A stretch of 64,000 nt of DNA from Hydractinia symbiolongicarpus (lineage: Eukaryota > Cnidaria > Hydrozoa > Anthoathecata > Hydractiniidae): contig NC_079885.1 in assembly GCF_029227915.1 (NCBI RefSeq), forward strand, positions 27,157,001 to 27,221,000, written 5' to 3'. Positions within the stretch are counted from its first letter, which is position 1. Each line of letters begins with the position of its first letter. The position numbers and the translations under genes are program-made. Positions 7,850 to 64,000 of the stretch are shown here, piece after piece. The notes under the pieces are model-generated. The model made no database searches. It was not told the origin of the DNA and was given only the letters and a program-made list of their open reading frames with translations.

Positions 7850-8755
7850 TTAACGTATAAGTCTGGGCTTAAGATTACATAGAGCAGCACATGCCTTGAC
7901 AATGTCATCAGTATGCTGCATCATAGTAATAGGTAAAACAGTTTTCAAGATGCGGTAGAACTTCACACGATTAATAGCACGCTCCACATGTATTCGTAGA
8001 TTGGCAATTTCTTTAGTGTTCTTGCACTCAGTTGATGTCATCTGACTTTTAATTCCAGCACCAGGTGGAACACTCAAACTACAAAATTTTAGCAGTAGTT
8101 CTTCTCTTATTTGAAACCCTCTATCAGCCATTACTTCGTCGTCCCGTTCTAACAATTCATAAAACCCACTATCCTTTGTTATATATCGATCGCTGGCCCG
8201 ACCACCATAACAGTCAGATAAAAATGTTATGAAACCTGCAGGTGATATACCAATTAAGAATTTTATTGTGTTGTGGTGCTTGTAATCGGACCATGTAACT
8301 GCTTGGTTTAGTAAAGATTTTGGTCTTGCAATAAACACGTCAGTACAGTCAATAATTACTCTGCATTTCGAGTGTCCAGTTTTAATAAAGGCATCAGGTA
8401 AATTGTCTCTAATCGCTTCTCTTGGTAGCCATACAACAAGAGCGTTGCCTAGAATTTTGCCTAAAATCTGTATCCATGTCGTGAAAGTGTTGGAACAAAT
8501 AGTGGGTGAAATTCCGAAGCGGTCAGCAAGGTCTTCATTTAGTAAACCTAAACGCAACCTCATCAAAGTTAGCAAAAATTCGTCACAATGTGTAAGGATT
8601 TTGCTTGCTTGAGTAGAATAAGTACGTTTGACTTTGCTGTAGCTATTTGCACGTTTAGGGCCTCTCCAGTATCTGATCTTAGATAAGTATGGGTTCAAAA
8701 GTTGAAATACTGATTCAAACATGGCAATAGATACTATGCCAGTGTAAAAATTCAT
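7850..8755 (-). CDS. DDE transposase of ISL2EU element
   Basis: A 301-codon open frame with an N-terminal helix-turn-helix region (SKILTHCDEFLLTLMRLRLG then LADRFGISPTICSNTF) and a DDE_Tnp_4-like catalytic core. The likely catalytic acids sit in VIIDCTDVFI (about residue 137), LSDCYGGRASDRYI through DDEVMADRGF (about 180-210) and LRIHVERAINR (about 253-263). It cuts and joins transposon ends. The upstream THAP frame overlaps its start by a one-base shift at a run of A near 8754, so THAP and catalytic parts were probably one protein or joined by splicing. Confidence 0.82.
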   Translation of the reverse strand: MNFYTGIVSIAMFESVFQLLNPYLSKIRYWRGPKRANSYSKVKRTYSTQASKILTHCDEFLLTLMRLRLGLLNEDLADRFGISPTICSNTFTTWIQILGKILGNALVVWLPREAIRDNLPDAFIKTGHSKCRVIIDCTDVFIARPKSLLNQAVTWSDYKHHNTIKFLIGISPAGFITFLSDCYGGRASDRYITKDSGFYELLERDDEVMADRGFQIREELLLKFCSLSVPPGAGIKSQMTSTECKNTKEIANLRIHVERAINRVKFYRILKTVLPITMMQHTDDIVKACAALCNLKPRLIR

Positions 8756-9467
8756 TTTTTGGTCTGTCTATTTTTCGCCATGTAAAAACACTTTTTTTAG
8801 TATTGAAGACTTTCACTGTGTTGGCAGTTTTAACTTGTAATGTTAACATATTTATTTTTGATACAAGAGAATCGATAACATTTTTCTTGTAGCTACATCC
8901 CTCACATTGCTGAGTTAATGATGATGAAAAATGGGAATGTTCCGATACTGGTGAAAAGAATGATGATGATTGACATGGTAATTCATTATTAACATTATCA
9001 TCAACATTAACATTATCATTAACAACATTATCAACATTATCATTAACAACTGCTTCGTCAACTTCTTCATTTAACAATTTTTTTTTCTTACAGTTAGGTA
9101 CAACACCTGAACGAAATAATTCTCTTCTTGGTCGTTTTTGTAAGAGTTCGTAACCCATGTTCAAAGTTGGATCTGGATTGGCGGCAGTGGGCACCCCATC
9201 AGCAAAATGAAACGAACACACTCTGTCACTTCCAGCAGGAGTCCATTTTGATTTATTATGTCCTTCTCGCTTGATAAGTTTAATCCAATTCTGCCTTTGC
9301 TCGTTGTTGTTCTTAATGCTCGGAAAACAATATAAATAAAATGGTCGTTCGCATCCACATAATTCCTTGATAACATTGTTGTGTATATCACACAATTCTT
9401 TCTTCCACTTTCGAATTTTAAACTGGCTATTCGTACAACCATTAACAGCACAATTTACGCTGGGCAT
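8715..9467 (-). CDS. THAP zinc-finger N-terminal part of ISL2EU transposase
   Basis: The first 90 residues form a THAP DNA-binding domain: CAVNGC, later WTPAGSDRVCSFHF with the C-x2-H pair, and a proline/basic context. An Asp/Asn/Val-rich low-complexity stretch (residues about 137-158) and a coiled-coil-like segment with CEGCSYKK follow. Its end runs into the DDE frame in a different phase, with the continuation expected at MNFYTG. THAP domains commonly bind the transposon ends. The ATG at 9465-9467 is the only sensible start before the THAP cysteines. Confidence 0.75.
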   Translation of the reverse strand: MPSVNCAVNGCTNSQFKIRKWKKELCDIHNNVIKELCGCERPFYLYCFPSIKNNNEQRQNWIKLIKREGHNKSKWTPAGSDRVCSFHFADGVPTAANPDPTLNMGYELLQKRPRRELFRSGVVPNCKKKKLLNEEVDEAVVNDNVDNVVNDNVNVDDNVNNELPCQSSSFFSPVSEHSHFSSSLTQQCEGCSYKKNVIDSLVSKINMLTLQVKTANTVKVFNTKKSVFTWRKIDRPKNEFLHWHSIYCHV

Positions 9468-9560
9468 TTTGTTTTAAAAATAACAGTTTGTTTATGGCTA
9501 TATTTATTTTGTATGGATCATTGTCTTCTTTCTTTTCACTCTGTTTGCTCCTCTCTCAAC

Positions 9561-12292: not shown

Positions 12293-13900
12293 CTATTTGA
12301 AATAATCTTTGATTGAGGATTGTTTTCTATTTTGAAGCTGAAGTTCCTCAATCTTTTTCGTAATGGTTGACAACATTTCTTGGCATGTATCATCAAAAAT
12401 AGCAGATCGCTTAATTTTATCAAGCATAGTGATTAGCTCGGTGAAACCAAGCATTTCTTCTTCAACCACGTCTTCACTCTCATCATCATCCTCGGAAATC
12501 TCTTTGACCTGACATGCCATCTCTGGATTTTCAATTGCGTTAATGCTAGCTTCTCGGATTTGATGTCGCCAATTTATTTCTAATTCGTTAATTCTTGGCT
12601 CCGAAGCTGGAACATCGGCGTCAAAATCGATGTATTCTGCAGCAGACATATCTTCAGTTAATTCCTTCACCAGAGCTTCAAATTCCAAGTCATCTTCTTG
12701 ATCTTCCATCAATTCACTTTCTCCTTGAACTACGCCACATTTCTCGAAACAATTTTTGATGGTCAAGTTGGTTACTTCTTTCCACGCATCTTGAACCCAT
12801 TGAATGGCCATAAGTATGTCTACGCTCTTGATAATTTCAGTTGCAGATTTATTCTCCTGGATCCTTGCAAGCACGTATTTGACCAGTCTTTTTCTGTACT
12901 TCACCTTGAAGTTTTGGATGATCACCGCATCGAGTGGTTGAAGCCTTGAAGTTGTGTTCTTCGGTAAGAAAATGATTTTGATTTGTGAAAACTGGCCTAT
13001 CATTGACTCCGGATGACAGGTGGCGTTGTCCAGAAAAAGAATAACTTTTCTGTCCTCAAATAAAAGTTTTCTGTTAAAACGTGCCAGTACAGTTTCCATT
13101 ACTTGAGATGTCATCCAAGATTTAGGATTTGAAAAGTAGTGAACGTTAGCTGGACGCGATGGATCTTTCAATTTTTTAAAACAACGCGGGACTTTACTCT
13201 TCCAGATAACAACAGGCTGGTCGATCTTTTCCCCAGCTGCATTTACAAAAAAAGCGACAGTTAATCTAAGCTTTGACTTTTTCCCACCTTTTGCTTGTTT
13301 TCCTTTTTCCACTAACCCTTTGGCCGGTAGAGCTTTAAAAAAACAGCCAGACTCGTCCATGTTCCAAATATTTTCTAGTGAATAACCTTCAACCAATTCT
13401 TTGATCCTCTCCATCCAGGAAGTAACCGTTTCTGTAGAAACGTCACCAGCTTCACCAACAATACGACGTTCTTTGACGGAATATGTTGTTTTCCAACGAT
13501 CCAACCAACCGTCAGAGGCGGAGAAATTATCAAAATCGCTGTTCTGAAGTTTTTCCTTAATTTCCAACGCCTCCTCTTTAAGCATTACACCATTAGGGTA
13601 GATGTTAGAAGCGCAACATCTTTTGTACCATTCGAATAAGATCTCATTTATCTTGTGATACTTGCCATGGCGGTTACGTTTTTTTGTTTTCTCACGAAAA
13701 ATTTCATGTTGTTCACGAATTTTCTTTTCGTCTCTTAAAATATTTGCTGCGGCTGTCTTTCCAAGCTTGTAAATGTCTGCTAGTTTTCTACATCCAAGTT
13801 CTGGATTTTTTTTGGCGAAATCCAAAAACTTGATCTTATCATCTAATGATAAAGTTTTCTTCGCTAGTTTACCAGCAAGCTGCTGCTTCGACATTGCCAT
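12293..13900 (-). CDS. pogo-like transposase with C-terminal PIP-box-like motif
   Basis: Uninterrupted 535-codon frame. Residues about 17-60 are a psq/CENP-B-type helix-turn-helix (CRKLADIYKLGKTAAANIL); 85-150 is a Tc5/CENP-B second helix-turn-helix (SASDGWLDRWK). The DDE core has IWNMDESGCF (about 180), VILFLDNATCHP (about 290) and LPKNTTSRLQPLDAVIIQNF (about 315), giving the three catalytic acids. The C-terminus is acidic and ends QSSIKDYFK, which fits the PCNA-binding consensus Q-x-x-I-x-x-Y-F; pogo transposase is known to bind PCNA through such a tail. It is divergent from the HIRAN-like gene with 62 bases between starts. All domains are intact, so it could be active. Confidence 0.93.
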   Translation of the reverse strand: MAMSKQQLAGKLAKKTLSLDDKIKFLDFAKKNPELGCRKLADIYKLGKTAAANILRDEKKIREQHEIFREKTKKRNRHGKYHKINEILFEWYKRCCASNIYPNGVMLKEEALEIKEKLQNSDFDNFSASDGWLDRWKTTYSVKERRIVGEAGDVSTETVTSWMERIKELVEGYSLENIWNMDESGCFFKALPAKGLVEKGKQAKGGKKSKLRLTVAFFVNAAGEKIDQPVVIWKSKVPRCFKKLKDPSRPANVHYFSNPKSWMTSQVMETVLARFNRKLLFEDRKVILFLDNATCHPESMIGQFSQIKIIFLPKNTTSRLQPLDAVIIQNFKVKYRKRLVKYVLARIQENKSATEIIKSVDILMAIQWVQDAWKEVTNLTIKNCFEKCGVVQGESELMEDQEDDLEFEALVKELTEDMSAAEYIDFDADVPASEPRINELEINWRHQIREASINAIENPEMACQVKEISEDDDESEDVVEEEMLGFTELITMLDKIKRSAIFDDTCQEMLSTITKKIEELQLQNRKQSSIKDYFK

Positions 13901-13962
13901 GTTGAATGTGCATTAGAAATTAAAAATTCGAAATTCTTTCCAGTTTAAAATTTTACGCTGCA
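13901..13962. promoter_or_regulatory. Shared divergent promoter region of pogo-like element
   Basis: Only 62 bases separate the two oppositely directed start codons. This stretch must hold, or lie within, both 5' leaders, so the two genes are probably co-expressed. No defined core promoter motif is recognised. Confidence 0.45.
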
Positions 13963-17148: not shown

Positions 17149-18866
17149 ATGGAAGTTCATCGCCAAAAATTTGAACAATTTGCCCAGCGTTACACAGGCA
17201 CTGGTAAAAGACCAACGAGTGGCACAATAACAAGAGAGTTCGGGAAGAAAATTTCCCAGAACTTAAAAAGCAATGAGTCGGACAGTAGAAAGGGTACAGA
17301 AGCACGTCGCTTCAGATTATTGACCCAGAAGTTTAAGCTGATAAACTGCGAAGAGCTGGGAATGGTGGATATTTTGATTGTGCCTTCACAAGAAGCTGTA
17401 AGTGAAAAATCGTGATTTCAAATTTTTAGTTCGATGTTCAACAATGTAAGTAATTATTATAACCGTTACTTTTTTCAGAAAAACCATACAAGTAATCAAT
17501 CGATACCTGAAGGTTACTTAAGAGTGGCATACGTAGATGAATTCTTTGACATCATACGCTCAATTCACTGTAATGAATTAAAACACGCTGGTGTGAAAAA
17601 GACGTTCAAAAAGGTATTAGTGTTTTCTTATCAGAATTAATAACTATATTTACATAAAAAATTGTACCCTAGACAAAATATAAAGATTGATACAAATAAC
17701 TACTCAATTCGTATTTTTCCTACAAGGTTTCAAGTTCATTTTGGGGTATCCCAAGATCGGCTATTGAAGAGTATATCAATCTTTGCGAAACTTGCCACTT
17801 AAAACAGCCACAGAAGACTGTACCGCCAATCAAACCTATTATATCAAATGGCTTCATGAAACGCTTCCAAGTAGGTTCGCACACACCTGAACTAAAATAA
17901 CAAAACGCTCTTAATAATGCTTGATTTTTCAACCGGAGATTTCTTTGCCTCAACATCAAATGCTTAAAATTTACATATGTTTGTTTTATATTTTTTATGA
18001 ACTTTTCACTTTCCGCTTTTTTAGGTTGATTTAATAGACATGAGTCATATGCATGATGGAGACTATAAGTATATCCTTCATTCCATTGATCATTGGTCGA
18101 GATTTAATTTTCTTGCTGCCCTGGAGAGAAAGGAAAGCGCTCCAATCACTGTTGAGTTGGAAAAAATATTTTCATTGTTCGGACCACCAAAGATCTTTCA
18201 TTCCGATAACGGTTCAGAATTTGTAAATAAATCAGTAGATCATCTTATCGAAGCTTGGCCAGGGGAGATTCAGGTGGTTCGTGGTCGTCCTCGCCATCCA
18301 CAGAGTCAAGGCATGATAGAACAGGCTCATATCAATGTGGAGCATAAAATATCAGTCATGATAGCTGAGTGTGCCAGTGAAACTAAACCTTGGAGCTCGT
18401 GGTTGCCACAAATATGTTGTAGGTTGATAACAATAGTTCCGAAATGCAGATCGAATTGTCGTTACTTATTTTTCATTTTTTCAATAGATGCCATCAGCAC
18501 ACAACAGCACAGCGCTACAGGATTTACTCCGTACGAGCTGGTATTTGGACAGTCACCAGCAACCACAATCATACCGACTGTTTCAAAACAGTCGAAGGTT
18601 ATCACTGATTCGAACTTTGATAACGATGAAGACATCGACTTTTTCTCCATACCTGTTAAAGAACAAATGAATTACAAACGTCATGCTGAACAGCCACACG
18701 ATGGTATGTACTTTTTCTTCAACTGAACTGAAATTAAAATTGACGTTTTATTATGAATTCTGTGTTTAATCTTTGTTGTGAATCAATTGTGTAGGCGAAG
18801 AGAATACGAATTCGAAGAACGTCACAAATGAAGCACATGTTATTGAAGACGATTGCGAAACTGGTT
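17149..18866 (+). CDS. Ginger integrase, exons 1-6 (H2C2 finger and DDE core)
   Basis: Predicted exons: 17149-17397, 17479-17613, 17727-17870, 18025-18418, 18488-18703, 18795-18866, all with GT and AG borders and consistent phase. The H2C2 finger is IHCNELKHAGVKKTF plus NLCETC. The catalytic acids are in VDLIDMSHMHDGDYKY, IFHSDNGSEFVN and RHPQSQGMIEQAHINVE. ATGFTPYELVFGQSP ends the core. The whole resembles the integrase-derived proteins KRBA2 and SCAND3, themselves domesticated from this transposon group. The enzyme inserts the element with a 4-bp stagger. Confidence 0.85.
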
Positions 18867-42213: not shown

Positions 42214-45200
42214 TTATTGATGCATGATTTGTTGGGGCTCCACATAATTCGAAGCTGTTGTTTATCACAGGTAAGTACAATCAGCTAATTTTCGCAATTT
42301 CATATACTATATATATATCAACAAATTAAAAAATATGGTACTTTTTGATTTTTCTTAGTAAGGATTAACAAAATTGTTGATTAACAAAACCTCACCAGTG
42401 CATTTTACAGAATTCTCAAGTTCGCTATCTTCACTTGATTCAGACCATTCAGAAGGTTCATCATTGCTCATATTTTGAAAATGCATGGATTCCTCAGATG
42501 TTTCTAAATCGTTAAAAACATTGTAACTTCATTGAAAAATCAGGGAAAGATTAGGGAAAACAGAATATGGAGCATCACGTTACAAAAAAATTGTAACTTG
42601 TTTATAAAGAAGTTAAATGCTGACAAAAAATGAAAGCATAGGATATCATTTTGAAAACACGAAATCATGGACATACTTTGAGAAACTTTCTTTTCTTTTT
42701 CTCGTGGGTGCTAAAAGGAAAATGGCTTTCAGTCATTTTGCAATCAGGTATTGTAACAAGGTTAACTTACACAACAGAAATACTTAAAAAATTGACTATT
42801 TATACTGTCCTTTCCTAGTAACAAATATTCTGTGTGATGTTTTGTGACGTCACTATATTTCTGAGATCGTGTTTTCGCTATTGATCAATCTAAGTCGAAT
42901 AGGTTGGTTTTTCACGTAAATTTTGTTTACATAGGGGCTTCTTTTCGAAGCCACATTTTATTTGCAACATAAGGTTCTAATCATTCAAAAAACGAAAATG
43001 TTTCCAATAATACATAATATTTTGTGAATAAAATCTTATTGTTACGCAATGAACTAACCGCAAGTTTTCTCTTTTTTAAATGTATCGTTTCGATGATTTT
43101 GTCTTTTTTCTCCCGCTTGTACACTTTTCTTCATTTTCTTTTTATTCGGTAGTTTTACGGTCTTCGCTTTACTTGTTTCTATTTCAGCATTTTCATCTAC
43201 AAAATACATTACAACTTAATTCAAGCCTGTTTGTAGGTAATTACGAACAAGTTAGACCTGAATAGAATGAAGAGTCAAAACAACTTAGCTACTTTTAAAT
43301 TTAAATTTCTTGCTTGGCTGCTCACAAATTTTCAACTTTTAAAAAAACTTCAACACCCAAGGAAAAGAAGTAGTCAATATGAACACCCATAATTCTAAGT
43401 TTTACCTTTACATTTTGTTTCATTTTCTTCAACTAAGTTAGGACCATTTTTTTCAAAGTTGTTGTCATTCTTTATACTTTGCGCTATAAAAAGATATGCG
43501 TTTATTTCACTTTTATAAAATTGATACACAAGAATAAACTGCAGAAAAACCGCTCACCATTATCAAGGACAGATAGATGTTTCCCAGTTTACAATAGTTG
43601 TCGATGAGCAGCTGGTGCTTGGTATATCATTTTATTAATTCTCTCACTGTGCCCAAAATGATAATAGGCCAAACTAATTTTGAACTCTGATAGACCTAAT
43701 CCAGCAATTAAGGTACTAAGGCGATGTCGGTTACTTGTTCCACTAATTCTTTTTCTGTTGGCAATTGGAAGTTTCGCACAAATCTAAGCTATGCCATCCA
43801 GAGCAATTATTATCAGAACCTTGGCTGCTGGGAAATATGTATGACTTTTCTTCAAGGACACCAGCATCTTTCCTTACTTGCTCTTTAGCCAACAACTTCA
43901 TTGCAGCAACAGTATCTTTAGGAATAAAAACAAGAACTAAATGGTTGACTCCTTTTCCCAATTGAAATGTGATCTTTGTTCCAAAGCTTAAGTTGGTTTC
44001 TTTTGCAATGTCCTGTATCCGCTGTTTGTCTAACCATTCATCCTTCTCAGCTTCAATCCACTGCGTAACGGTTAGACGCGATGGTTCTCCACCTCTTCGG
44101 CCATTATACAGCACAAGACGAGTGCAAGCACAATCACGTAGTTCAACAAACGTATGTCTGTCTATGATGGTAAATGGATCTGATGATAAGTGGCTTATCC
44201 TTTTAAGCACATTATCTCGAATTAGTTGGACATCGCCTTCATTTGGAAGTTGTGCAGGTTTTTTAGTTTTCACATTCCTTCTCTTGTTTAAATCATACGT
44301 TGCGTCAGCGAATATTTCGTCTTTGCGTAATTTCAGCAATACCAAAAAGTTTTTAATTTTTTCTGCATCAACATCATTATTTTTATCAAGGTAATAACCA
44401 ATTAGTTTTTCGGCGGCGTCTTTCACCACGTAATACAAGGCTGTTTTAAGCCCTGACTTTTGAACTTCCAAATCAGAATGAGTGTAGGATTCAATAGAAT
44501 ATTTCAGCACCTCAAAATTTTCCCTCAGAAACATTTCACCAGCATTGTTGTTGTCATTACAACAATCTCTTGGTACTTCCAACATCCTATCTTTAAACCT
44601 GGAATAAACATGTGCCAGACGACGCATGTCGCTTCGAACAGACCGTTCAACTTCCATTTTTTGTTTAGTCTTCTTTTTATTTTGCCATAGAGGCGATAAC
44701 CAACCATCAAAATAACGGGATCCGATTTCGCCAGAGTACCAACGGCTTCGTCTTTGATGATGTTCAGAATTCTCTGCTTAAATTGATAATCCGATAGCTT
44801 CCATGACTCATCACTAGTACAATCCAGAGCAATTGTAACAGGAAATTGACAGGAGTTCTTTGAGCAGTCTGCCTTGTGCCTAGCTTTAAAGGTTTTGGCA
44901 AGAGATCCTTTGCAGGTGGTGCACATAACAAGAACATTATGATTATATATGCAAATTTTTCGAAAGTTAGCGAAGGCTCTCAGTCTTTCTTTTCGAGGCA
45001 TGCTCAAAGCATCCTTCGCATCTGGATGATGCTTATGACATAAAGTGATGTGTCGATTTAATTTCGAATGCTTGATCTTTTTATCGCAAACAAAACAGTG
45101 TCTTAATGGTATTGAGTTTATCTACGAATAAACATACCTATACAGGATACAACTAAGCATACATTTTCTGCTCATCACACCTAAGCTACTTAACCGTGAA

Positions 45201-49940: not shown

Positions 49941-50196
49941 GAAAATTACTGATCATTCAGCATGTCACACATTTGTGTCACAGTCCTGGTCTTTTGAGGT
50001 GCGCGAGACCGCCCCCGTACCTCGGCACGCTCCTGCAACAATGGAGCAGCGTATTTAATCGCGCACCAAAGACACCCTAGTCGTGCACAAAAATGGCCGT
50101 ACTGGGCATTTACAAACCACCCAATCAACGCTGCGATTATTTTCTTGAAAACCTTGGTAAAGTCCTAGTTCGTTTCATTACGAAAATTGTATAATA

Positions 50197-52570
50197 ATGG
50201 GCGACTTTAACAGCCACGAATCCGAATTATCAATCTTAAAAACTCACTATAATCTTTCAAACTTAATTGATTCACCAACTTGTTACAAGAACCCTGCGAA
50301 CCCATCCTGTATTGATCATATATGGGTTTCTGACAAGAAAAGGTTCACAAATAGCTGTGCAATAGAGACAGGACTGTCCGATTGGCACAAACTCACTGTG
50401 ACTGTTATAAAAGCGGAGATGCCAAAAAAGAAACCCCGCATTATAAAGTACAGGTCTATAAAAAACTTCAATAAATCCGAATTCCAAAAAGGCCTTACTA
50501 AGTCAATGGAGTTACAGGAAGTGAATTTCGCAAACCTCGATGTGGCTTTTAAGAACGTAATTGAAAAACATATGCCAGTGAAGCAAAAGATGGTTAGAAA
50601 CAATCATGCACCATTTATTACGAAGAGAGTACGCAAAGAAATTATGATGAGAAGTAGAAAAAGAAACGTATATAATTCGAATCCAACTGCTGAAAATTGG
50701 AACTCTTTTCGAATTCAAAGGAATAAGTGTGCAAAGATTGTCAGAGATGCAAGAAAGAATTATTACAGAAAACTTGACGTGTCGAAAGTTCGAGACAACA
50801 AAGAATTTTGGAAAATCGTGAAACCAAATTTCTCCGAGAAAGCAAACAAGGAAAATATAACTTCGTTAGTCGAAGATGATGCTGTTTTACGAAATAAAGT
50901 TGAAATTGCAAACGTCACGAATGATTATTTCGTAAATATCACAAGATCACTGAATTTAAACAACATCCCTGAAAACAATCTGGGAACAGCTGATGATTGC
51001 TCTCGTACCGAGGTTGATGCAATTATTTCAAGTTTCAAAGAACATCCGAGCATAAAAAATATCAAATCAAAATTCCCCAAAAGTGCTGACATGGACGAAA
51101 TGAAATTCTGTCATGTTTCTGTTGAAAAATTAAAACTTTATATTGGTTCTTTAAAAAGTGGCAAGGCTTGTCCAGAGGGAGACATACCTGCAGATCTTCT
51201 CAAAGCTCACGCAAATGTTTTTGTTAAGCAGTTGAGTCACTGTTTTAATGACTCAGTAGATAGGTGCATCTTTCCTGAGTCTTTGAAATTTGCGGATGTG
51301 TCTCCACTCTACAAGGCAAAGTCTAGGGTCTGCAAAGAAAATTATCGACCAGTTAGTAAACTGCCAAACATCGCTAAGGTGTTTGAAAAAATCTTATTTG
51401 AACAGATAAGTGAGTTCATGGAGGGGAAAATGTCCCCTATCTTGTCTGGATTCAGGAAAGGATACAGTAGCCAACATGCTCTTTTAAATCTAATGTGCTT
51501 TCTTCAAAAAAAGTTGACTCTAAAAAGTGTGTTGCTGCCTTGCTCATGGATCTAAGCAAGGCTTTTGACTGTATTAACCACAAGCTACTTATTGCTAAGC
51601 TTCATGCTTATGGATTTTCTTCTAGTGCATTATCTTTTATTTGGAGCTATTTAAAGCAGCGCTTTTAAAGAGTAGGTATTGATGGGGTTTTTGGTTGTTG
51701 GAAGGAAATTTTTTCTGGTATACCACAGGGGTCAATTTTGGGGCCGTTACTGTTTAACATATTTTTAAATGATTTTCTTTTTCAATATGACGTGAATATG
51801 CCGCCCTGCTCTGATATTCTAGTGTGTAACTATGCTGACGATAATACGTTTTGTGCATCAGCTGAAACCTTTCACGAAGTAAAATATATTTTAGAACAAC
51901 TTTTTAGGTCAGCAGCTTTATGGTTTTCCGATAATGGCTTGCAATTAAACGCAAGCAAATGCGATTTTATAATATTCGGAAAGCCAGAAAGTCCACAAAT
52001 CCGGCATTTAAATTTAAATGGAGCAATTTTATCTGCATCCAAATGTGTAAAGCTTCCTGGATTGTTGATAATAAACAGAAAAGTTTATTATATGCAACAT
52101 TCATAGCATCTGAGTTCAATTATTGTCCTTTAGTCTGGGGATTTAATAGCAGGAAATCTATTTCAAAGGTGGATAGAGTTTTAAAAAGGGCAAGGTCTCA
52201 GTCTAAAGTGGAATCCATTTCTTCTGCGAAAAGAATTCATATGCAACATTGTAGACAATTACTAAAAGAGGTCTACAAGACGAAATGGAAATTGAATCCT
52301 TCCTACATGGAAGGTGTGTTTCAGTTTAGAAATGATACTGGATATAATTTAAGGTCATCAAGTGCTTTAGTTAGACCTAGAATAAAATCTTCAAAATATG
52401 GGCTGCAAACATTTGGATATATAGCCTCCCAATTATGGAATTCTCTTCCTGATGAAATCAAATCTGCAGAGTCTTTGGTTAAATTCTGTAGAGCTATGGG
52501 CGAATTTTCTTCTTTCCAATGCAAATGTCGGATCTGTGCAGAATACATAATTAATTTAGGAATTATTTAA
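50197..52570 (+). pseudogene. Endonuclease/reverse-transcriptase ORF2 of non-LTR element
   Basis: IMGDFNSH and CIDHIWVS plus LSDWHKLTV are the C-terminal endonuclease motifs (the D and H of the active site). The reverse transcriptase has GSLKSGKACPEGDIPADLLK, ENYRPVSKLPNIAKVFEKIL, SGFRKGYSSQHALL, then after a shift LMDLSKAFDCINHKLL, a stop near 51668, SGIPQGSILGPLLFNIFLND and the catalytic NYADDNTF. The C-terminal part (NYCPLVWGFNSRKS, LRSSSALVRPR) follows in another frame. It copies its own RNA at a nicked target. Confidence 0.85.
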
Positions 52571-52779: not shown

Positions 52780-52889
<110 letters not shown>

Positions 52890-52910
52890 AGATTCACCAA
52901 ATTGCTGGAT

Positions 52911-53105
52911 TGCTCCCGAAATGCAAATTTCGTAATCAGTCTTTAAATCGATCTAGCATCTTCTGTAGTAGGAAATACGTGGCTGTTAAGTGCCAAAAAG
53001 AAAGTTCCATGCCTCTTTGATGGAATTGAAGTTAAAAATTTCTATAATTTACATTTACAAAAAAAATTGAGCAGAAGTGCGCAAAGCGTTTGCATTTCGG
53101 GAGCA
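52911..53105. repeat. Short foldback element
   Basis: TGCTCCCGAAATGCAAA at 52911-52927 and its exact reverse complement at 53089-53105 enclose about 160 bases. Related ATTTCGGGAGCA motifs recur near 53515 and 53703, so more than one piece of the family is present. Confidence 0.6.
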
Positions 53106-55122
53106 CGCATGTTTTCTCGGGCTACATTGACCCCCATAAGTTGTCCTTTGGTCCCATATTAGCTTGCTTTATTCCCTCTTAAATGATAGAATCCCACTCC
53201 ATTCCACCTTTATTTTATCATATCTATCTAGGAAAAATACAAAAATTTTGATAAATTTGGTTGAGTCAAGTTCATAGTGTAATATCGGGTATGTGTTACG
53301 TACGCTGATGTAAAATGCGACTTCGATAGCGTTTGATTTTTTCAGTGTAACTCTCATATCATCTTTAAACACTACAAAACCAGTTCAAATCCTTTTGCTT
53401 CTTAACAAAGTGGGTCTGGGGTATGTTTAAAGGATGGAATGGAATAGTAAATATTTTTTGAAAAAAAATTATAAGCATTTTCTCGAGTTTTTGCCTTCAA
53501 AAAATTTGATTTGAATTTCGGGAGCAAAAATTTAAGGCGTTTTTGTGTAATTATTCTTAAAAAATGTAATTACACAATGCGGTTCAGTTGTTTAAAGAGA
53601 AGGAACAATTCACACAACTCAATTCAAGAAAAAAATTGTTACAATTTATATCAATGTGCTCGATTTGACGCATGCGCAAAAAGACCCAATTTTGAAATTT
53701 GGATTTCAGGAGCAATTCCCTGGATAAATTGTTACCTTAAAAAGCGCAAGTTTATTCTTGTTTCAATAGGTTTCCAGTTGTTCATTAACGTGCAGTACTA
53801 CAATAAATGAATTAAGTTAATTTTCTGTCAGTTCTTAACAAGTAGTTGAAATATTCTTGCCCCCTATTTTGTGGATAAGTCGTATGTAGCTTGTTTTTAT
53901 GTATTTTTTATCTTACCAACTCCCGTATTCCTCATAGATAGGACACGTAGGTAGAAAGTTGGTATAGGTGATTATTATGATGACACAACGACAGGAAAAT
54001 TGCTGACGTCAGCATTTTTGTGAAGGTTCCTTATTTCTGCTGACATCATCAAGTTCATTGTTGTTTTAAAACCATTGAAGAAGCTTCTTTCTTCCTCAAT
54101 TATTTGAGGGGTAGTCATTAGTATGTGCCATTTGCAGGTTCGAGTTTTTAGTTAACAAATTGTGGTTGTTCCACCGGACTTTTACATTTTTTTGGGTATT
54201 TCCTATGTATGTTTTCCACATGTTAGTCTGTCTTAATGTTTAGCGGAGGTGCCCGCAAGAAGTTTGTACGTGGCGTATTAGTAATTATAGCGTTTCGTTG
54301 TTTCATTGATGCACAAGACAGATGTGTTGCACATAACATTATTGCGCGCAAGAAGATCGGTGCTACGGAAACATAAAAAACGTCCGGGCTGGGCAAATTC
54401 CTGGGTTTATCCATGGGCTGTGGACTTATATGAATTTATTTTGTTTACATACGGAAAATCTGCACCATTTTTACTAATTACCATCCCTACGTAAGCGGTG
54501 CTTGCCAGAACAGCAGTTAATGTATTAGTTTTAGAACATTGTATGTAGCTATATCGACTCCTACAGTTTATTTTGCTAACATTATGACAATTACTTCAGA
54601 GTAACATCTTTGGTACTACCTACGAATGTCCTGTGGGAGAACATCTTTCTCTATACTGTATCTAAGAATAGTTTGATATGTTGGTTAATACACGCCATAA
54701 TAGACACTGTAATGTTAAATGTGTTTTATTTAGTCAGAGACGCCGTGAATAGTAGTTTCTAAGGCAGAACAATATGGTAATGCTGGAAAAAGGTAAGTTC
54801 CTTACAGAAATGTTCATATAAACACAAACGTTTACTTGAATTATTATTTCTAACGGAATAATTATCGGGAACATTTGTTAATACAATGTTGAAAATTAAT
54901 AACAATATATCGTGTTGCAACATACAGTTAGATATTCATTAGTTAAAAATAGCTCTGAAAGCGTATTACACGAAAGAGGTGTATGAGAGGATGGTAAATT
55001 AAGAAAATGATCAGAAACATTTTGTTGGTGGGAATTGATTTGGTGGGAAAATAAATTTCACTTTTTGATTATATTTTTTTATTGCTACTTTCTATATGCA
55101 TGCTGGGAAATATACTAATGTT
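53106..55122. other. No gene recognised
   Basis: About 2 kb of AT-rich sequence without a conserved frame. A short plus-strand ATGGTAATGCTGGAAAAAG followed by GTAAGT at 54773-54797 looks like a tiny first exon, but no partner was found. Confidence 0.45.
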
Positions 55123-55442
55123 CTAACTAGCATTGTCCTTTGCAAATTTCTTTTTCTCAGTGCGAACTTTCATCACTATTGTGGTTACACCGTATTTTTC
55201 GATCAAATCTTTCACAACTCTGTCAGCTTTGCTTGCACTGCGAATATCTGCCTCCTTAATTAATTTACTTCCTGTTATCAGGTCTCCAAATTTTCCCCAA
55301 ATTGATTGGCTATCTTCGCTGGAAAACTTCACCCTATCTTTTCTAGTTCCAAACAAGGATGAAGTCGTTTCACACGTCGAAATCGATGTATTGTCGCTGA
55401 TCAGAGCTTCATTATCGTTAAAAGGGGCTTCTGGTTCGTGCA
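55123..55442 (-). CDS. Terminal exon of the fusion gene
   Basis: Begins after ACAG in phase 1 and encodes about 106 residues to TAG at 55123-55125. It has an acidic Ser/Thr-rich first half, an IWGKFGDLITGSKLIKEAD helix, and a Lys-rich end. No family is recognised beyond loose similarity in position to Crypton C-terminal tails. Confidence 0.7.
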
Positions 55443-58400
55443 CTGTTAATTCTAAATGTTTAATTTTCTATTTTAATTATGTACATTTTTAAAGTTATCC
55501 GTTTTAATTTTCCTTTTAAAAGCTTTTTAGAACAGGGTTGTATGTAAATGTGTATTATTTAAGTATAACTGAGTTATTGACGCAACACCTTTTCATTTTA
55601 TTTTAACCATATATGAAAAGCAACTTCAACGCCTCACTCACAAAATATTAAAGGTATATTGACGGAGAACAACATGATTAGCAATGTGAAGTTAATACAC
55701 CCCAGAGTCCTTCGCCTGTTACCCCAGTACGGCAGTTTGTCATATTTATTTTGGAAAAGCAAAATCTAGTGACTACAGTGACTGGACACTTTTTCTAAAA
55801 GCAGAATATATTTTTTACAAGATAAGTCTCCAAGTGCCACGCGAGACAACGCAGCGAAACTTGTAAATTACATTTGTTTTGAAAATATGATTTTTTGGGA
55901 AAGAAATGGTTAATAGTAGTCACTTTCTTTTTTAAAAGTCTAAGTTTTTTAAAAAACGTAAAGCTTACAGGGGAATTATAACGTAATGTGCAGAAAGAAT
56001 GGGATAATAATAAATTGCGTAATCAGGTTAAAATTTTAATAAGAAAACTAAAAATCAATTTGTGAAAACGTATTAAAATGCTATGTCTCAAATTATTACC
56101 TTTATCTCTAACTTCATCGTTATTCTGTCTCTTCGTCTTCGACATGATGAAATAACGAATTTTATCTCGTAGCTGTAGTGAGGTAAGATTAAAAAAGCTC
56201 GGATGTAATGTTGACTTTTCTTTCACGACAGTCAGAGTGATTTTACCATCACTTATCTCCTTTGCAAAATGCACTTTAATGGCATCCTCTAGAGACACAT
56301 CAACGTTATTCTCAGTTTGGCGTAGGACAGATCTCAGCTCCCTACTTGTTTCTGCGGCACTTTTTGACTTTTCTTGCAGAAAGTACGACCGTCTGGCTGT
56401 TGCCTTGGAGTGGCACATTAAATTTGCCAACTGTTGCTCCAACTCTGGCCTCAAAGAATGAGTTTTAGTGACACACGTCTTGCGGACTAGTGTTGCATTA
56501 AGACGTGGTCGCAGCAAACTCCTTCCCACTGCTTTATTCCAAAATGAGTTCAACTGGCCTGTGGCCATTGAAGAAGACATTTTATTTCCGCTCCAGCTGG
56601 TAAAAAACGGGTTGTTGGCAGAACCTTTTTCGTCGTCTAGGCCTTCTAGCCTATTTCGGAAATGTTGAAAGAATATCGATGATTCTTTATATAGATTTGC
56701 AGTGAAGCAAATTGTCGCTGGTCCCGACGTCGCTATTGTTTTGTGGTTAAAAACACTTACAATATATACTCCATTTTCCATTTTCCCCGTCATGAACTCT
56801 TTGGTTGTCATGTTAGCCAAAGCACCGGTCCTTGACGCGTTATCCAAGCAGAGATAAGTTAAGATATAATCTCGAACAGAGGTAAATTGCTTGAATGTTG
56901 GAACTTTACCAGTGGCCAACACTTCCTTGATATTCCTGCGACAATTGGATACGTGTGTTGAATTATCGAAGGTGTTGACCTCTTCAGCTGTTATGAGCTG
57001 ATCTAACTGCTCCAAATCTTTCATCCATTTGTCGCTTTTGGCCTTCTTTCTATACTCCACAATCCAGTTTTCCATGATAACTATCATGCTTGGACAGTCC
57101 TTAACGAAATCTTTGAAAAGCACAGGTGTGTCACACAAAATATACTTGTAAAAATGACATAGGGAATGGAGATAACTTTTTATAGTTCCAGCTTTTCTCC
57201 GTTTTTCAAAATTCAGTAACCATTGATTCCTGATCTTCATGCGGTCAAAAAGAACGGATAATTCGTATGAATCTTGGCTGGTGTCCTTTAAAATCAGTTG
57301 CACTTGTCTGGAATGTTGTTTCGCAGCACGTTTATTTTTTCGCTTACCATCAGGGCTAACCAACCACAATTCAAATTTGTCAAAATGTGACTCATTCCTC
57401 CATGGTGTAATTATAATATCCATATTCTCATCCTCCTCATCTTCATCCTCACTTCCATCCAAATCTTCAATTCTACATTCTAGAAGGAAAAAAACTTTTA
57501 AATGATGATTTTCCTCAGGGAGATAAATTAAATTCTTTACACTAAGCTATTGAAAGGCTAAAATAATATAATACTATGCATTTTTTACTAAGAAAATCCT
57601 TATGGTTCAACAGATTCAAGTATTATCAAGTTACTTACGCGACATGTCTTTGCGGAAAATTTATAGGTAAAAAATTCCTTTAAATACTTAATATTTTCTT
57701 GTAAATAAAAATTAACAAAATAATTTTTTTTAGAATATCCTGCCACTTACAAACAATTAGAAAATGTTCTTATTACGGACTGTTTTTTGTTTGAATCCTT
57801 TTAGGTTAAAAATTCTGCTCACTGTTTAAGTTCAAATTTCTTAAGCATAAATTTTAAGTTGAACAAAAGTGGCAAATTTCTTTAAAAAATCCTGTTTAAT
57901 GCTGGATAGAAACAAGTTTAATGAGAAAAGTTACGCAAAAATCATGTACAGAGAATAAAGTCGATATTTTCTTCATAACTTGCACGCTTCAATATATGTT
58001 CATATCAAACGCTCATATCTTAGGAGCAAAATTTTTACGCAGCGTTGTTACAAAAGAGGAGGGATTGCATACTTTTTCGGTAAACAAGTCAAACCTTACA
58101 TACCTAGTGAATCGTTTTTGCTTGTTATTGGCAATTTACTACGGACAGGTTCTATAAATAAACAAATTAAAAGTAGAGTACGTCACAAGAAATACATTAA
58201 AGGTCTTCTGTTATCAAAAGAAAACTGTAGTTTTTAATGGTTGTTTATAAGACAGGTCATAGAATGAAAAATTATACCTTGTTCTTGTTTTTCTTCGAAA
58301 CGGACAGATAAAGGCTCAATCGTCGTTATGGAAGGAGCTGAGATGAGATAAAGACGATTTATTGACAATTATTGTGACATCATAACAGAAAGGATGAATT

Positions 58401-61400
58401 AAACAATCAAGAGTGCCATGACGACTTCTTATCAAATATGCACTTAAAGCTAAACATACATACCTAGTGTCTCATTGAAAATTGGGAAATCTGAGTCAGG
58501 TTCTATAAATTAACCGAATAAATTGTAAATAAGCAGCAAAATTTTGTTTTTAACGGTTTAAAGTGCTAAAAAAGCGCTAACTGGGACAGAAAACATCTTT
58601 TCTTTTTTGTATTTGAGAGAAATTAGGATAGTTTTGTGAAACGGACATGCGCTTTCGCAGAAATTAGGATAATGGTTATACCTATTTCTTCCGTTTCTTC
58701 TAAATCGACAGATAAAGGACCAACACTTGCTATGGAGGGAGCTAAGATGAGACAAGGAATCGTATATTATTAACAGTGAAAGTAATAAAATAGCGAATCA
58801 ACGAAACAAGCAGCAACCAATCACCCTAGAATTATTTTTTTTTATAAGCGCCTCCCTCATTTAAGCGCCCCATGTAACAAGTATTGTTCCCTCTAAAAGA
58901 AAGAGGCGCTTAATAGAATTTTTTTTCAGATTCGTATCAACCAAAACAAAAAACAAAAAAACTCGTAAATGATTTTAAAAAAAAATCTTCTTATTAAAAA
59001 AGTTACAGCTTAATTTTCTGGGAATTTTAACTGCCATGTAAAACTTTTAACGTAGTATTTCTTCTTTTCGCCCCAACAAAAGAAAGAATGAACTTAACTG
59101 GTTATTCATATTCGAATCACTAGAATCTTTGAAATGTTATAAGGGTCTCCTTGTTTTAAATACACACCCCTGTGATAATCTCCCTCCCCTAAAAACTGGA
59201 AAATTATACTTGCCTTGGGCAACTATGAAAATTCACATTTTAGAGCTTAGACGGTGACGTGTTTCAGTGAAAATCTGCTTTTTTTTAAATTTCGCGATTG
59301 AAAGTAGCCTTTTTTTGGAAAAATGAATGAATGAGTGAATGAAATAATGAATGAATGAAGAGATCGTTTATTTGTAATAGTTAGTTATAAAACATACAAA
59401 CCTACCTCTAGAAATCGTGGAAGAAGATTTTCGATGCTTAACCAAAACAGTTTCTTCTTGTCTTTCGCCTAGTGTACATAAAAATAGTTTTCTAAGCAAA
59501 TTATCACCCTAATTTTCATTAATTATAACACCCCAGATCTGTATTGAGGGTTTTGGGTGTATATTGATTTCGTTATTAAAGTCATTGTTCAACTCACTAG
59601 GTCATAAAGATTTTTAGATTCAAAGCGCAAAAAAACATTTGCATAATGTCACATGAGAATAAATTTTTCCGACTTTATAACATCTTTGCTTAACCTAGTC
59701 TTTTAACAGCGCACTTTTGAAAGTAATCTTGTTTGATTCACCTGTTTTTTAATCGTAAATAAAGTGTGATTTGAGAAGTATGTTGTTTTTAACAGGGAAT
59801 TAATCAACAGGTTAATATTTTAATTCCAGTGCGTCTCACTTTAAGAAGAAAGAAATTATTACGGCATCCAATATCAAACATTTATTTTTTGAACAGGCAC
59901 ACAATCGTATGTCAACAAAATCTGCAATTAACAAAGTTAATAATTTTCTTACTAGTTCTACGCTCTCTTTCTTCTCGCCTACGTTCCGCAATATTTCTAA
60001 CCTTTCTCGAAAACCAATCTTCATCGCTGCTATCATTGGAATTCACAGGCGACATATTTTCAGCAACTTTGAGGTACTTCATTCCACCATTCCTCATGAT
60101 CTTGTTTTCCTCTTCCCGTTCGCTACTTTCGCTGCAACTACTTGTCGCGCTATCTTCGCTTAAACCATTTTTAGGTGTAAATTCCTCGAAAGCAATGGCC
60201 TCTTTCATAGCAGCCTTAAATTTTTTGTTATCTTTAATTTTGTGTGTTTCTCTCAAATGATTTTCTATTCGAACAACCACTTTTGAGCAGCCCAGAATGG
60301 GACAAATCTTTTTCCGGTAAAATCGAGGTTTGGTTTTCCTTTGCTCGTTGGCTAATCTTTTTCTCTCGTTATTTGAACTGATTCCGCTTTTATAACTTTT
60401 GGCATTCTCTTCCGTTATCTGATGTACTCGAACAAGATGAACCACTAAATCAGTCTTGTCTTGAAAGCAGACTGGACAAGTGCACACTTTTCGTTTTCGT
60501 TTCTGTGGAAAAGTGCTCCTCAAAGATTTTTCCCATAGATTGAAAGTCTAAATAAAATTTTAACAACTATTAATTTCGGTAGGTACCTAATGTTAACCAT
60601 AAACAAAGGTGAATTGCTTACTTTTTTGGCTTCAGCTACATTTCCACTCCGAATCAACTGACACAATCTTTCTGTGACGTTCAAATCCTTCAATAAGTAT
60701 ATTTTTCAGAAATACTTAGTAAATGTTACAAGATTTGTCAAAAAATAAGTGGGAAAAGTTATTACTGTAATACCTTTTCATCACAGTTTTCTTTTCGCTT
60801 CACACGTTTCATAGGTGGCATTTCTGGTAGCGGGTTATCCTAAAAATGGGTATATTGTCAGTGTAAATTATTTGCCGATCTTGAATTAAATCTACATTTT
60901 AATTATTTTGTAAAATTGAAACAAAACAAATGCTTGTCATTTCCTTGTGTCATATTATGGTATTTTGTTATTTATTTCTACGAAAATAGCATAGGATATA
61001 TTTCCAATCGCTTTTAGAACAATTCCTCTTATAACGACGTTCCTTTAAATAAAATAAGATCGTAAAATCGTAAAATAAAATAAAGTAAAGAGCCTAAATC
61101 GATAAACTCAGATAGTTTTACAGAAGATCCTAAGTAAACATACACGTAAGCGTCTAACTTCTAATGTTAATTCATCGACATCAGCAAACTAAAAGTAAAC
61201 ACGTATTGCTACTATAACTATAGCATTCTGTTACCACTGATAGTCATTTGTAAAGAGTGTTAGGCAACTTGTCAGTCCAAAATGCTCATATAAAAAACTT
61301 CCTTAAGTGCTGATTAAGCAGTAAGGTACGTTACCTTTTCCTGAGCATCGGTAGGATTAAAAATTTCATTTAACATTTCCGCCGCATTGTATTCTTGAGT

Positions 61401-63761
61401 TGGCAATACTTCCACTTTCTACAGGCACAGAGAGTAAAAATAACAAGCTCAAGAAAATGTATAAAATGCCCTACAAGAATACTAAATAATGAAGGAATTA
61501 ATAAACAAATAAACTTGTTTTTACTCTTCCATGTCTAGCAGGTAACAGTCAAAATATATTAATACATTGCAATTATACATGCACTTACATTTTAGCTTCG
61601 GTTAAGAAAACTGGTAATGTAATTAGAAAGCCAGTTTCAAATGAGAAATGTTTAAAACTAACCATATCTAGAACTGGTTTTGAACTCTCAGTTGTATCGT
61701 TAATGCTTCCCTCACCTGTCGCCTGTCTTTTATCCTACAGGAGCAAATTTTTGGAATGAACAGCGTGTTATTATTGCGATATCAATATAGATTTAGAAAT
61801 ATTAAAAACTAACTGTATTTGAAAATTCCCTTGCGCTCTCAACTGTATTTTCCCCGCCTTTGTCAACTGTCTCTTGTCTTCTACCCTACGAAAGTAATAC
61901 AATTCATAGTATAAAGGCTATTTTACCAAAGATTGCGTGTTATAATTGCGAAATCGATATATAATGGAAAATAATAAAAACTAACTGTATTTGAAAATTC
62001 GTTCACGCTCTCAACTGTATTCTCCCCGCCATCGTCAACTGTCTTCTGTTTTCTAGCCTGCAGAAGTAAAATAATTCATAGTATAAGGGCTATTTTACGT
62101 GTTATAATGAACTTGAGATATTTTCAGCCTTGTGATTTTGTTAAAATTTCTTAAGATTCTGGACTTTCAAGACTAAATTTCATATATTGGGCATTAGCTA
62201 AGTTTAAAAGTTTTTTTGGTAAATCTATTTTGAGTATCTAAGCAGAACGTATACTTTAACAAGATTCAAAATCTTATGATACCAATTTTCATTATGTAGA
62301 TAAAGTGCCCAATTATCAAATAGTACCTTATTCTGTGGATCCACATCAATAAATGTTAATCCATCTTTTATGTATTGACTTCTTGCCAGTGCAAAGTCAA
62401 CGTCACAATCACTGTTTTTCTAAAAGGTTGTGTCAAATGTGGAATGGTTATTATTTTAAAATTAATCACATTTCGTCCACATCTAAATAATATAATCACC
62501 TTCTTATTCTTTTCCTTTAGTTTACTTAAAGTGTATTTTACCTTGGACCTCTTATCCTATAAAAAGACAGTATTCAATGTAGGCACGCATAGGCTTGATG
62601 CATTAACATAAAGAGAAATTCACAAACCTTTCTCCACCAAAGACCGCTAGCTCCATACGAGTATCGCAACTCCTCACCAGGGCAAATGTCTTTTAGTGCA
62701 AATAAGCACAAGTGCAGGCGTCCATTTAACAAAACACTTTTCATTGCAGAGTTGGGAAACTTTGAATCGTTGACGTATTTTCCTAACCTTTCTTCGTGTG
62801 TTGCATCAATGCTATAACATAAAAGTCAGATGTTACATCAACAATCTTACGTACTTGTTTAAGTTTACACATTTTATATTCGAAATGAAGAAAATATTTT
62901 TTGAGAAAATATTCTGTCTGAAAGAAAAAGTAACGGTAGGTGACTTACCATTTATTTTTATAAAAAAATAGGAACGATCCTATGTCATCTGGATAAGTTT
63001 TCATCAACTCATCACCTTCCTCTTCTGTTAGCAAAGTACCAGGGTACTCCAACAAGAAATCATTCTTCTGGAAGTTAATCGTCGCAAAAATTCCATAACC
63101 TACACGAGATCAAAAGACTCAAAAATAGACCTACAAATAAACGAGCGACTGAACAAACGACTGCACGAACGACTATTCTTACCAATGTAGTCATCGATGT
63201 AACATTTTTCAAATCCAGGAGGATCGGCTCCGAGCTCGCAAAAGATTTTTGCTACCTCTTCTCCAGTTTTTTTTCTTGATTTTTGTGGCTTAAGATAAGA
63301 TGTTCATTGTTAGACTATTTTATGGTTACATTTAAATAAAACAACGGTTTGTAAGAAGCGGATATTTTCAACATCACCATCAAAATTTACTAAGGAATTG
63401 ATTTTTCGAATACGTTAACTGATATAATAGCTTTTGTGAGCATGGCAAACCACTCTTCGTATAAATACTAGGCGTTCGTTGGTTGGGTGATAGCTTTTTG
63501 AAGACTCAAGTATTGTTTGTTTTACACAAACTCGTCCCCAGCGCCTTTTCTCTCCTATTAGTAAAAAAGAGACAAAAGGCACTGGTACGAGTTTGCGTTT
63601 TACAGTTACTATAATCTTCTTAGTACCAAATAACTTCTTATACAAATACATTGCCTTCTATTTCATTCATCTTCGCTGAAACTCTACAATCACTAGTTTA
63701 AATTTTTTAGTTCTATATCAACTAAATAACTCACCTCTCTTGATCTGATTTCTGAACTCAT
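55123..63761 (-). CDS. Intact 19-exon SET / zinc-finger / tyrosine-recombinase gene (Crypton-like)
   Basis: Minus exons: 63735-63761, 63183-63288, 62949-63099, 62628-62811, 62542-62556, 62500-62514, 62327-62419, 61986-62057, 61814-61885, 61663-61734, 61335-61418, 60774-60839, 60622-60687, 59953-60547, 59406-59468, 58682-58741, 58278-58337, 56100-57479, 55123-55442. All have GT-AG borders and matching phases; lengths sum to 3,501 nt, i.e. 1,166 codons plus TAG without a stop. Residues 45-156 are a KMT5A-like SET domain; 157-341 are acidic/basic linkers; 342-540 hold two C2H2-like fingers; about 601-1060 is a tyrosine recombinase; the last 106 residues are polar and basic. Intactness next to damaged relatives suggests a young or selected gene. 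Exon prediction is by eye; the two 15-nt exons are least certain. Confidence 0.82.
56100..57479 (-). CDS. Tyrosine-recombinase exon of the fusion gene
   Basis: 1,380-nt open exon. After an acidic start (GSEDEDEEDENMD) come a helical core-binding region (residues about 670-790) and the catalytic domain: LDNASRTGALANMT (Arg near 817), FNHKT (Lys near 847), LVRKTCVTKTH (second Arg near 933), and LMCHSKATARRSYF (His near 957, nucleophilic Tyr near 966). The set R-K-R-H-Y is complete. Style fits Crypton recombinases. Donor GTAATA follows at 56099. Confidence 0.82.
58278..58741 (-). repeat. Duplicated 60-nt exon pair
   Basis: Exons 58682-58741 and 58278-58337 are both 60 nt, phase 1, and encode APSIASVGPLSVDLEETEE and APSITTIEPLSVRFEEKQE. 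Acceptor and donor contexts match (CTCATCT-AG and GTATAA). Confidence 0.85.
58848..58915. repeat. Small inverted repeat in an intron
   Basis: AAGCGCCTCCCTCATTTAAG and the inverted GAGGCGCTTAA lie about 45 bases apart and could form a stem. It looks like a remnant of a short nonautonomous element. Confidence 0.5.
59322..59360 (+). repeat. (GAAT)n microsatellite
   Basis: GAATGAATGAGTGAATGAAA and neighbouring units form an imperfect 4-bp repeat in an intron. Confidence 0.85.
59953..60547 (-). CDS. C2H2-like zinc-finger exon of the fusion gene
   Basis: Residues 342-540. CTCPVCFQDKTDLVVHLVRV then H is one finger (C-x2-C-x9-H-x4-H), and CPILGCSKVVVRIENHLRET then H a second, C-x4-C type. Basic KRKRKVC precedes, and an acidic serine-rich stretch (SSCSESSEREEENK) plus an Arg/Glu helix end it. 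It probably gives DNA or protein targeting to the recombinase. Donor GTAAG follows at 59952. Confidence 0.8.
61663..62057 (-). repeat. Three tandemly duplicated 72-nt exons
   Basis: Exons 61986-62057, 61814-61885 and 61663-61734 are each exactly 72 nt, phase 0, and each is followed by GTTAGTTTT. The first two encode nearly the same peptide (RKQKTVDDGGENTVES against RRQETVDKGGENTVES); the third is diverged (DKRQATGEGSINDTTES). Flanking introns are also similar, so whole exon-intron units were duplicated. Confidence 0.85.
62628..63099 (-). CDS. SET-domain exons (3 and 4) of the fusion gene
   Basis: Residues 45-156: GYGIFATINFQKNDFLLEYP matches the SET start (G-x-G-hFA, then DFLLEY-x-G); CIDATHEERLGKYVNDS and LHLCLFALKDICPGEELRYS then YGASGLWW match the SAM- and lysine-binding end, closest in style to KMT5A/SETD8. 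SET enzymes methylate lysine, KMT5A acting on histone H4 K20. The usual N-H-S is N-D-S at 109-111, a change in the SAM pocket that could weaken activity. Y145 and Y147 of the GEEL-x-Y-x-Y-G motif are kept. Confidence 0.8.
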
Positions 63762-64000
63762 TTTCGTGTTCTGACTTTAAATTAACTATTTTTTCTGACT
63801 ATTGTTTATAACCTGCTTTTTAAAAATATTTATACACTAAATGTTGTACATTATTTTACAGGAATGTGTAATGTGTCAAACCTTGCTCGACTAAATAAAC
63901 ACTGACACGACAACATATATACGAACTGAAAGCTGCCCTAATTAAAAGCCATACATCACACTTACGTCTTTGACGTAGCTTATAAGTTGTTTCTTAGTAA
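63762..64000. other. 5' flank of the SET fusion gene
   Basis: AT-rich sequence upstream of the predicted start codon. It would hold the promoter or more 5' exons, but no defined signal is recognised. Confidence 0.4.

Follow-up and report, generated by a model that had tools for sequence, protein, structure and literature searches.

The 64,000-nt stretch of Hydractinia symbiolongicarpus DNA analysed here (the window, C11:27157001-27221000) very probably contains most of a young CryptonV-like DNA transposon of the tyrosine recombinase (YR) kind, inserted in a microsatellite and encoding one protein that combines a SET domain, zinc fingers, a YR and a helical domain. The term CryptonV-like is used by description, for the YR and the microsatellite insertion, and does not refer to sequence kinship. 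The window gene, all of which lies on the minus strand, is best read as one representative of a group of YR transposons that carry SET and insert in microsatellites.

The original prediction, made from the sequence alone, had placed a SET, zinc finger and tyrosine recombinase fusion gene at 63761-55123. The gene is real and these limits are exact. The 19 exons and 1,166 codons proposed for it were not reproduced; there are 21 exons with GT-AG borders and 1,208 codons plus stop, open throughout. An initial chain of 20 exons (1,189 codons) gained a 45-nt exon and 12 nt of another exon once it was compared with an NCBI protein. From the N- to the C-terminus the protein has a KMT5A-like SET domain, two zinc fingers, a YR of the Cre/Xer fold and a C-terminal helical domain. 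The element and the gene have the following features, in window positions.

52888..64000, minus strand: portion of the element inside the window, with its 3' end at 52888; the element continues past the right edge to 72406 on the same scale
52780..52887, unstranded: (AGAT)27 microsatellite adjoining the element's 3' end
63735..63761, minus strand: exon 1 with the start codon, the same start as in the original prediction
63183..63288, minus strand: exon 2, where the SET domain begins; protein 100% identical in the copy on contig C15
62949..63099, minus strand: exon 3, SET (GxG motif, GYGIFA)
62628..62811, minus strand: exon 4, SET (NDS replacing NHS; GEELRYSYG)
62542..62556, minus strand: exon 5, 15 nt
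62327..62419, minus strand: exon 6, linker
61986..62057, minus strand: exon 7, 72-nt linker exon, tandem-duplicated
61814..61885, minus strand: exon 8, 72-nt linker exon, tandem-duplicated; frame-shifted in the copy on contig C4
61663..61734, minus strand: exon 9, linker, akin to exons 7 and 8; ends in the Met codon with which the NCBI protein of the C4 copy starts
61335..61418, minus strand: exon 10
61144..61188, minus strand: exon 11, recovered through the NCBI protein and absent from the initial chain
60774..60839, minus strand: exon 12
60622..60687, minus strand: exon 13
59953..60547, minus strand: exon 14, encoding two fingers of C2H2 type, read by eye at about 60478-60422 and 60304-60242
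59406..59468, minus strand: exon 15
58682..58741, minus strand: exon 16, 12 nt longer than in the initial chain
58464..58502, minus strand: exon 17
58278..58337, minus strand: exon 18
58104..58151, minus strand: exon 19
56100..57479, minus strand: exon 20, tyrosine recombinase
R 56832-56830, K 56742-56740, T..R box 56493-56482, H 56412-56410 and Y 56385-56383, minus strand: catalytic residues of the YR, from aligned columns
55123..55451, minus strand: exon 21, with the C-terminal helical domain and the stop codon

Exons 7 and 8 are made by a tandem duplication of a 172-bp intron-exon unit (window 61763-62098), and exon 9 looks like an older copy of it.

The SET part of the proposed fusion was recovered in a profile search against PF00856 (E 4.1e-16), and its closest solved structure is KMT5A/SETD8 (E 2.8e-16). 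The GxG motif, the motif Asn, GEE and the catalytic Tyr pair are all present, as in a KMT5A-like SET. Residues N109, G140, E141-E142, Y145 and Y147 are invariant in the four SET rows aligned. The fingers match Pfam weakly (zf-Di19, E 0.012). The YR part has the Cre/Xer/lambda-integrase fold, and the R-K-R-H-Y residues of the original claim all have their columns in the alignment. Among the non-gap rows these columns hold R in 28/28, K in 28/28, R in 27/28, H in 27/27 and Y in 26/26. Searches of the YR exon against NCBIfam and PHROGs, and against PDB by sequence, gave nothing useful, and none of 332 pattern matches in viral contigs was confirmed. The predicted full-length structure of P0037, the 945-aa NCBI product of the C4 copy, has a mean pLDDT of 67.9. 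Homology of the C-terminal domains was considered and rejected, with 104-314 of 1000 shuffles scoring as well in pairwise comparison and profile probabilities of 4.8% and 25%; homology of the fingers was likewise rejected (profile probability 31%). Both domains depart from the expected motifs in ways that weigh against the proposed protein. NDS replaces NHS in all four SET rows, and the His of HxxR, part of the R-H-R-Y tetrad, occurs in 0/28 rows, with Thr in 23/28. Because this His is replaced in all 28 rows, activity of the YR is not assured.

The window copy is about 19.5 kb long including introns, a length that follows from the location of both its ends at (AGAT)n, and 8.4 kb of it lies beyond the right edge of the window. 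A genome search for more copies with element ends, proposed along with the original prediction, found the whole unit with its introns on contigs C4 and C15, at 98.5-99.5% nucleotide identity, and the shared 3' end at further sites. A lone or host gene was rejected on finding these copies. In the C15 copy the frame stays open for the full 1,208 codons despite a 2.9-kb intron insertion. The C4 copy is LOC130641636, and all 11 differences between the gene model and P0037 recur in it. Both differ from the window copy by large indels, C4 being without the stretch 69086-67013 on the window scale. In its own right, the insertion in the C15 copy (C15:5684000-5686882) has ends that resemble short inverted repeats (CACGGCGGG / CCCGCCGTG).

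All three copies have the same 3' end sequence followed by (GATA)n. The suggestion that the (ATCT)27 of the window is a mere tail of the neighbouring LINE was therefore rejected. Past the 3' GATA the DNA differs between the window and C15 copies; in C4 the GATA repeats continue up to the end of the stretch examined. On the 5' side, which was read in the window and C15 copies, C4 contributing a 3' end only, both copies also start in (AGAT)n and have unrelated flanks. A 17-22-nt motif is repeated near both element ends, subterminally and in both orientations. A genome search for the 3' end plus GATA hit 12 sites on eight contigs (10 without mismatch, one with a single mismatch and one with 2); since the pattern includes GATA, the share of ends lying in GATA is not derivable from this count. 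The reversed 3'-end pattern had 0 matches in the genome. Two SET matches on contig C14 lie about 10 kb from such a 3' end with GATA, matching the spacing in the window. The copies on C11, C4 and C15 and the 12 3'-end sites together make a dispersed unit that encodes a YR and has no reverse transcriptase of its own, as in Cryptons. The 8.6 kb upstream of the gene has as its only open reading frames of at least 110 aa two antisense fragments, which look reverse transcriptase-like by eye. Such antisense fragments were seen in the upstream part of the element at about 67220-67850 on the window scale (L036, L037) and in L034. As in CryptonV, the insertions lie in microsatellites: the window and C15 copies have (AGAT)n on both sides, C4 has it at its 3' end, and three copies of a second family have (TA)n at their 3' ends.

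At least 112 stretches of this genome match PF00856 (232 candidates, 150 of them scored), and many of these matches share a score while lying on different contigs. From these 112, 20 SET stretches were picked by hand, favouring the groups with repeated scores, and 18 of them have a same-strand YR downstream. Eight of the 20 (L009-L016, on five contigs) are copies of the second SET-YR family, 98.8-100% identical to L011, with a YR of a second lineage, that of the NCBI protein P0049. The 3' flanks are (TA)n in the three copies examined (L011, L012 and L013). Beyond it the DNA differs between L012 and L013, and L011 is still in TA repeats at the end of the examined stretch. Tandem repeats of about 114 bp were also noted upstream of SET in this family (L009-L016, L039-L041). 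Other loci pair a single-match SET with a distant relative of the window YR. At a related locus, L022:1808-5626, an unspliced frame of 1,272 codons encodes SET, two zinc fingers (one of DBF type, PF07535, E 9.9e-12, the other C2H2-like) and, up to the second box, most of a YR. Two NCBI proteins of the same species, P0049 and P0050, have an N-terminal SET and a zinc finger with the second-lineage YR behind. The original proposal of SET, zinc fingers and YR in one gene on a Crypton-like element is thus supported by the copies on three chromosomes, two of them bounded by microsatellites on both sides, and by the L022 frame.

The SET of the window gene is 56% identical to that of P0049, whereas the YRs gave no significant alignment in the same comparison. 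At profile level the two YR lineages match only weakly (hhalign probability 7%), and a strong link between them was rejected. Since the SETs are this similar and the YRs show no significant alignment, at least two YR lineages have either acquired SET or retained it.

It is likely that SET and YR are made as one protein, as the reading frame suggests. Phase 0 continues through a three-exon bridge (exons 7-9, 216 nt), and an in-phase chain of this length was reached by 1 of 300 shuffles and by 7 of 234 control segments taken from the window; a chain of three exons did so in 1 of the 234. The thresholds of this test were set by the tested exons themselves, and shuffling destroys the tandem origin. 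The alternative, in which the element carries two adjacent genes, exons 1-6 forming a short KMT5A-like SET gene and a recombinase gene without SET starting near exon 9, is unlikely. It draws on P0037, which is without SET and takes its start Met from the final codon of exon 9. However, exon 8 of the C4 copy is frame-shifted with its donor lost, which accounts for the missing SET, and there is no in-frame Met in exons 5-9 ahead of that codon. The main objection to the fusion is therefore removed, and the SET-less product was rejected as proof of two genes because it comes from a shifted copy. AATAAA and ATTAAA are also absent from the coding strand of the introns between exons 6 and 10. P0049 and P0050 are fusions with the same order of domains, as is the unspliced frame of L022, and the fully open C15 copy likewise counts for one protein. 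Several observations nevertheless count against a single protein. A precomputed SET is found in 0 of 12 long YR1 relatives retrieved by word search, one of which is the C4 product, and these relatives, Clytia proteins included, begin without SET. The linker has no clear similarity to the relatives, with 46 of 1000 shuffles as good in the best case. A chain that is in phase and 72 nt long is possible in 28 of the 234 window segments. Exons 7 and 8 have diverged as much as their introns (84% over the unit) and, being duplicates, count as little more than one exon.

Exon changes between the copies, as replacement:silent, are 17:7 (window-C4), 15:5 (window-C15) and 18:6 (C4-C15). The site ratio is near 3.8:1, and pN/pS is 0.63-0.79 by a simple tally of small counts. 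With these counts so near the site ratio, strong purifying selection is not seen. Differences from the window copy number 24/3627 in exons and 40/5011 in introns for C4, and 20/3627 and 31/5000 for C15. Recent drifting copies fit better than a guarded host gene. The original prediction had called the gene young or maintained and had proposed a dN/dS test between copies; of the two, young is favoured, with copies that differ by about 1%. A domesticated host gene, in which a former YR transposon protein, fused to SET, was retained as a site-specific chromatin regulator like primate SETMAR, is accordingly very improbable. The twenty introns would suit it, as would the SETMAR precedent (PMC6326780) and the switching on of KMT5A-like genes in Hydractinia embryos (PMC10368294). 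A SETMAR-like fusion would be a single host gene under purifying selection, whereas this gene is multicopy, with near-identical intron-bearing copies on several chromosomes, two of them flanked by microsatellites, and with changes between copies that have no visible bias against replacement. Just as improbable are segmental duplications that broke by chance at microsatellites, with no transposition. Units of about 20 kb, the generally recombination-prone nature of microsatellites and the large indels that separate C4 and C15 from the window would all be expected of them. Chance breakage is harder to reconcile with two identical ends on different chromosomes among unrelated flanks, a 3' end at 12 sites, a second family ending in a different microsatellite, and a unit that encodes a recombinase and has repeated subterminal motifs. 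A transposon of the proposed kind has points against it as well. As no empty site was seen, we infer the microsatellite to be the target rather than the element's own end, and L025 and L026 have SET with no YR within the roughly 9 kb examined.

Tyrosine recombinases can excise DNA as a circle and exchange strands at short matching sites. For the element in the window, the zinc fingers and YR would bind the subterminal repeats, and the YR would excise the element as a circle and recombine that circle into GATA repeats. The SET, held at the element ends or at the target by the same protein, may then methylate nearby histones, with an H4K20-like specificity suggested by its kinship. The most likely benefit would be that the element's own chromatin is kept permissive in the early embryo, or that the state of the insertion site is set; the SET might also help with integration. 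Should the protein be produced, a selfish DNA element would deliver a chromatin writer of its own to the DNA bound by its recombinase. This would be a new route for transposons to cope with host silencing and a natural case of targeted histone marking.

Some CryptonV families insert specifically in microsatellites (PMC8869645, which cites a Repbase report on cnidarian CryptonV, Kapitonov and Jurka 2012, Repbase Reports 12:2034), and CryptonV is also listed in PMC5753468 and PMC4455052. Like the element here, these are cnidarian YR DNA transposons with some microsatellite-specific families, a likeness of description only (PMC8869645). CryptonA and CryptonI (Kojima and Jurka 2011, PMC3212892) are likewise animal YR DNA transposons without terminal repeats. 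The animal Cryptons in that paper have no C-terminal domain, whereas the protein here does have one, along with SET, two zinc fingers and a replaced HxxR His. The terms 'SET domain' and 'methyltransferase' are absent from the text of PMC3212892. The examined passages of the Hydractinia genome paper (PMC11067881) have no mention of Crypton or tyrosine recombinase. Human SETMAR, as described in PMC6326780, also has a SET methyltransferase upstream of a transposase, and its DNA-binding part takes the methylase to transposon ends. It differs in that it is a single, domesticated gene, joins SET to a mariner transposase and is linked to H3K36, whereas in the present case mobile elements carry and multiply a KMT5A-type SET with a tyrosine recombinase. 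From KMT5A/SETD8 itself the window gene differs in its N-terminal SET, in the change of NHS to NDS and in the junction to a recombinase. A SET-YR or SET-Crypton fusion was not found described in the open-access literature. Cnidarian microsatellite-inserting YR transposons and SET-transposase fusions are each known; the novelty therefore lies in their union, which, as far as the present searches of that literature extend, is undescribed in mobile multicopy elements.

Up to 65 KMT5A-like genes, termed 'predicted H4K20 methyltransferases', have been described in Hydractinia, with an expansion in sea urchin too, to 61 genes, and 24 such genes in Hydra (PMC10368294, as for the following). Most of these have an N-terminal SET and the longer ones carry other domains; the long genes of Hydractinia and sea urchin are alike at both ends. 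In Hydractinia embryos 22 of them are switched on, and the early ones are not adjacent to each other. The words 'recombinase' and 'integrase' are absent from the main text. That gene set is from the same species and is KMT5A-like, and 18 of the 20 SET loci chosen here sit upstream of a YR, genes and loci not being matched one-to-one. SET-YR transposons may account for many of the 65 published genes. More tentatively, and at somewhat less than even chances, a group of animal YR transposons would carry a recombinase-fused histone methyltransferase that controls chromatin at their ends or targets, and the 'H4K20 methyltransferase' genes of Hydractinia, perhaps of sea urchin, would largely be such proteins. 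If so, mobile elements would partly write the unusual embryonic H4K20 programme. This offers a simple reading of the puzzle of scattered, divergent KMT5A-like genes in Hydractinia, and possibly in sea urchin.

Outside the main element, the window contains a further recombinase.

43553..45109, minus strand: decayed, frameshifted recombinase, a relative of the second SET-YR family

It has an N-terminal zinc finger, closely resembles the open frame L011:5942-7648 and looks like a second-lineage relic; no SET was found near it. The original prediction had held that all other mobile genes around the fusion gene, apart from a pogo-like pair and ISL2EU transposase parts, are damaged. This stands for the frameshifted recombinase at 45109-43553, the only one checked. 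Other neighbouring mobile-element frames, named by eye, lie at window 2591-5026, 6286-9473, 12293-13912, 18025-18726 and 50161-52570, and are reverse transcriptase-like, ISL2EU/THAP-like, pogo-like, integrase-like and LINE-like.

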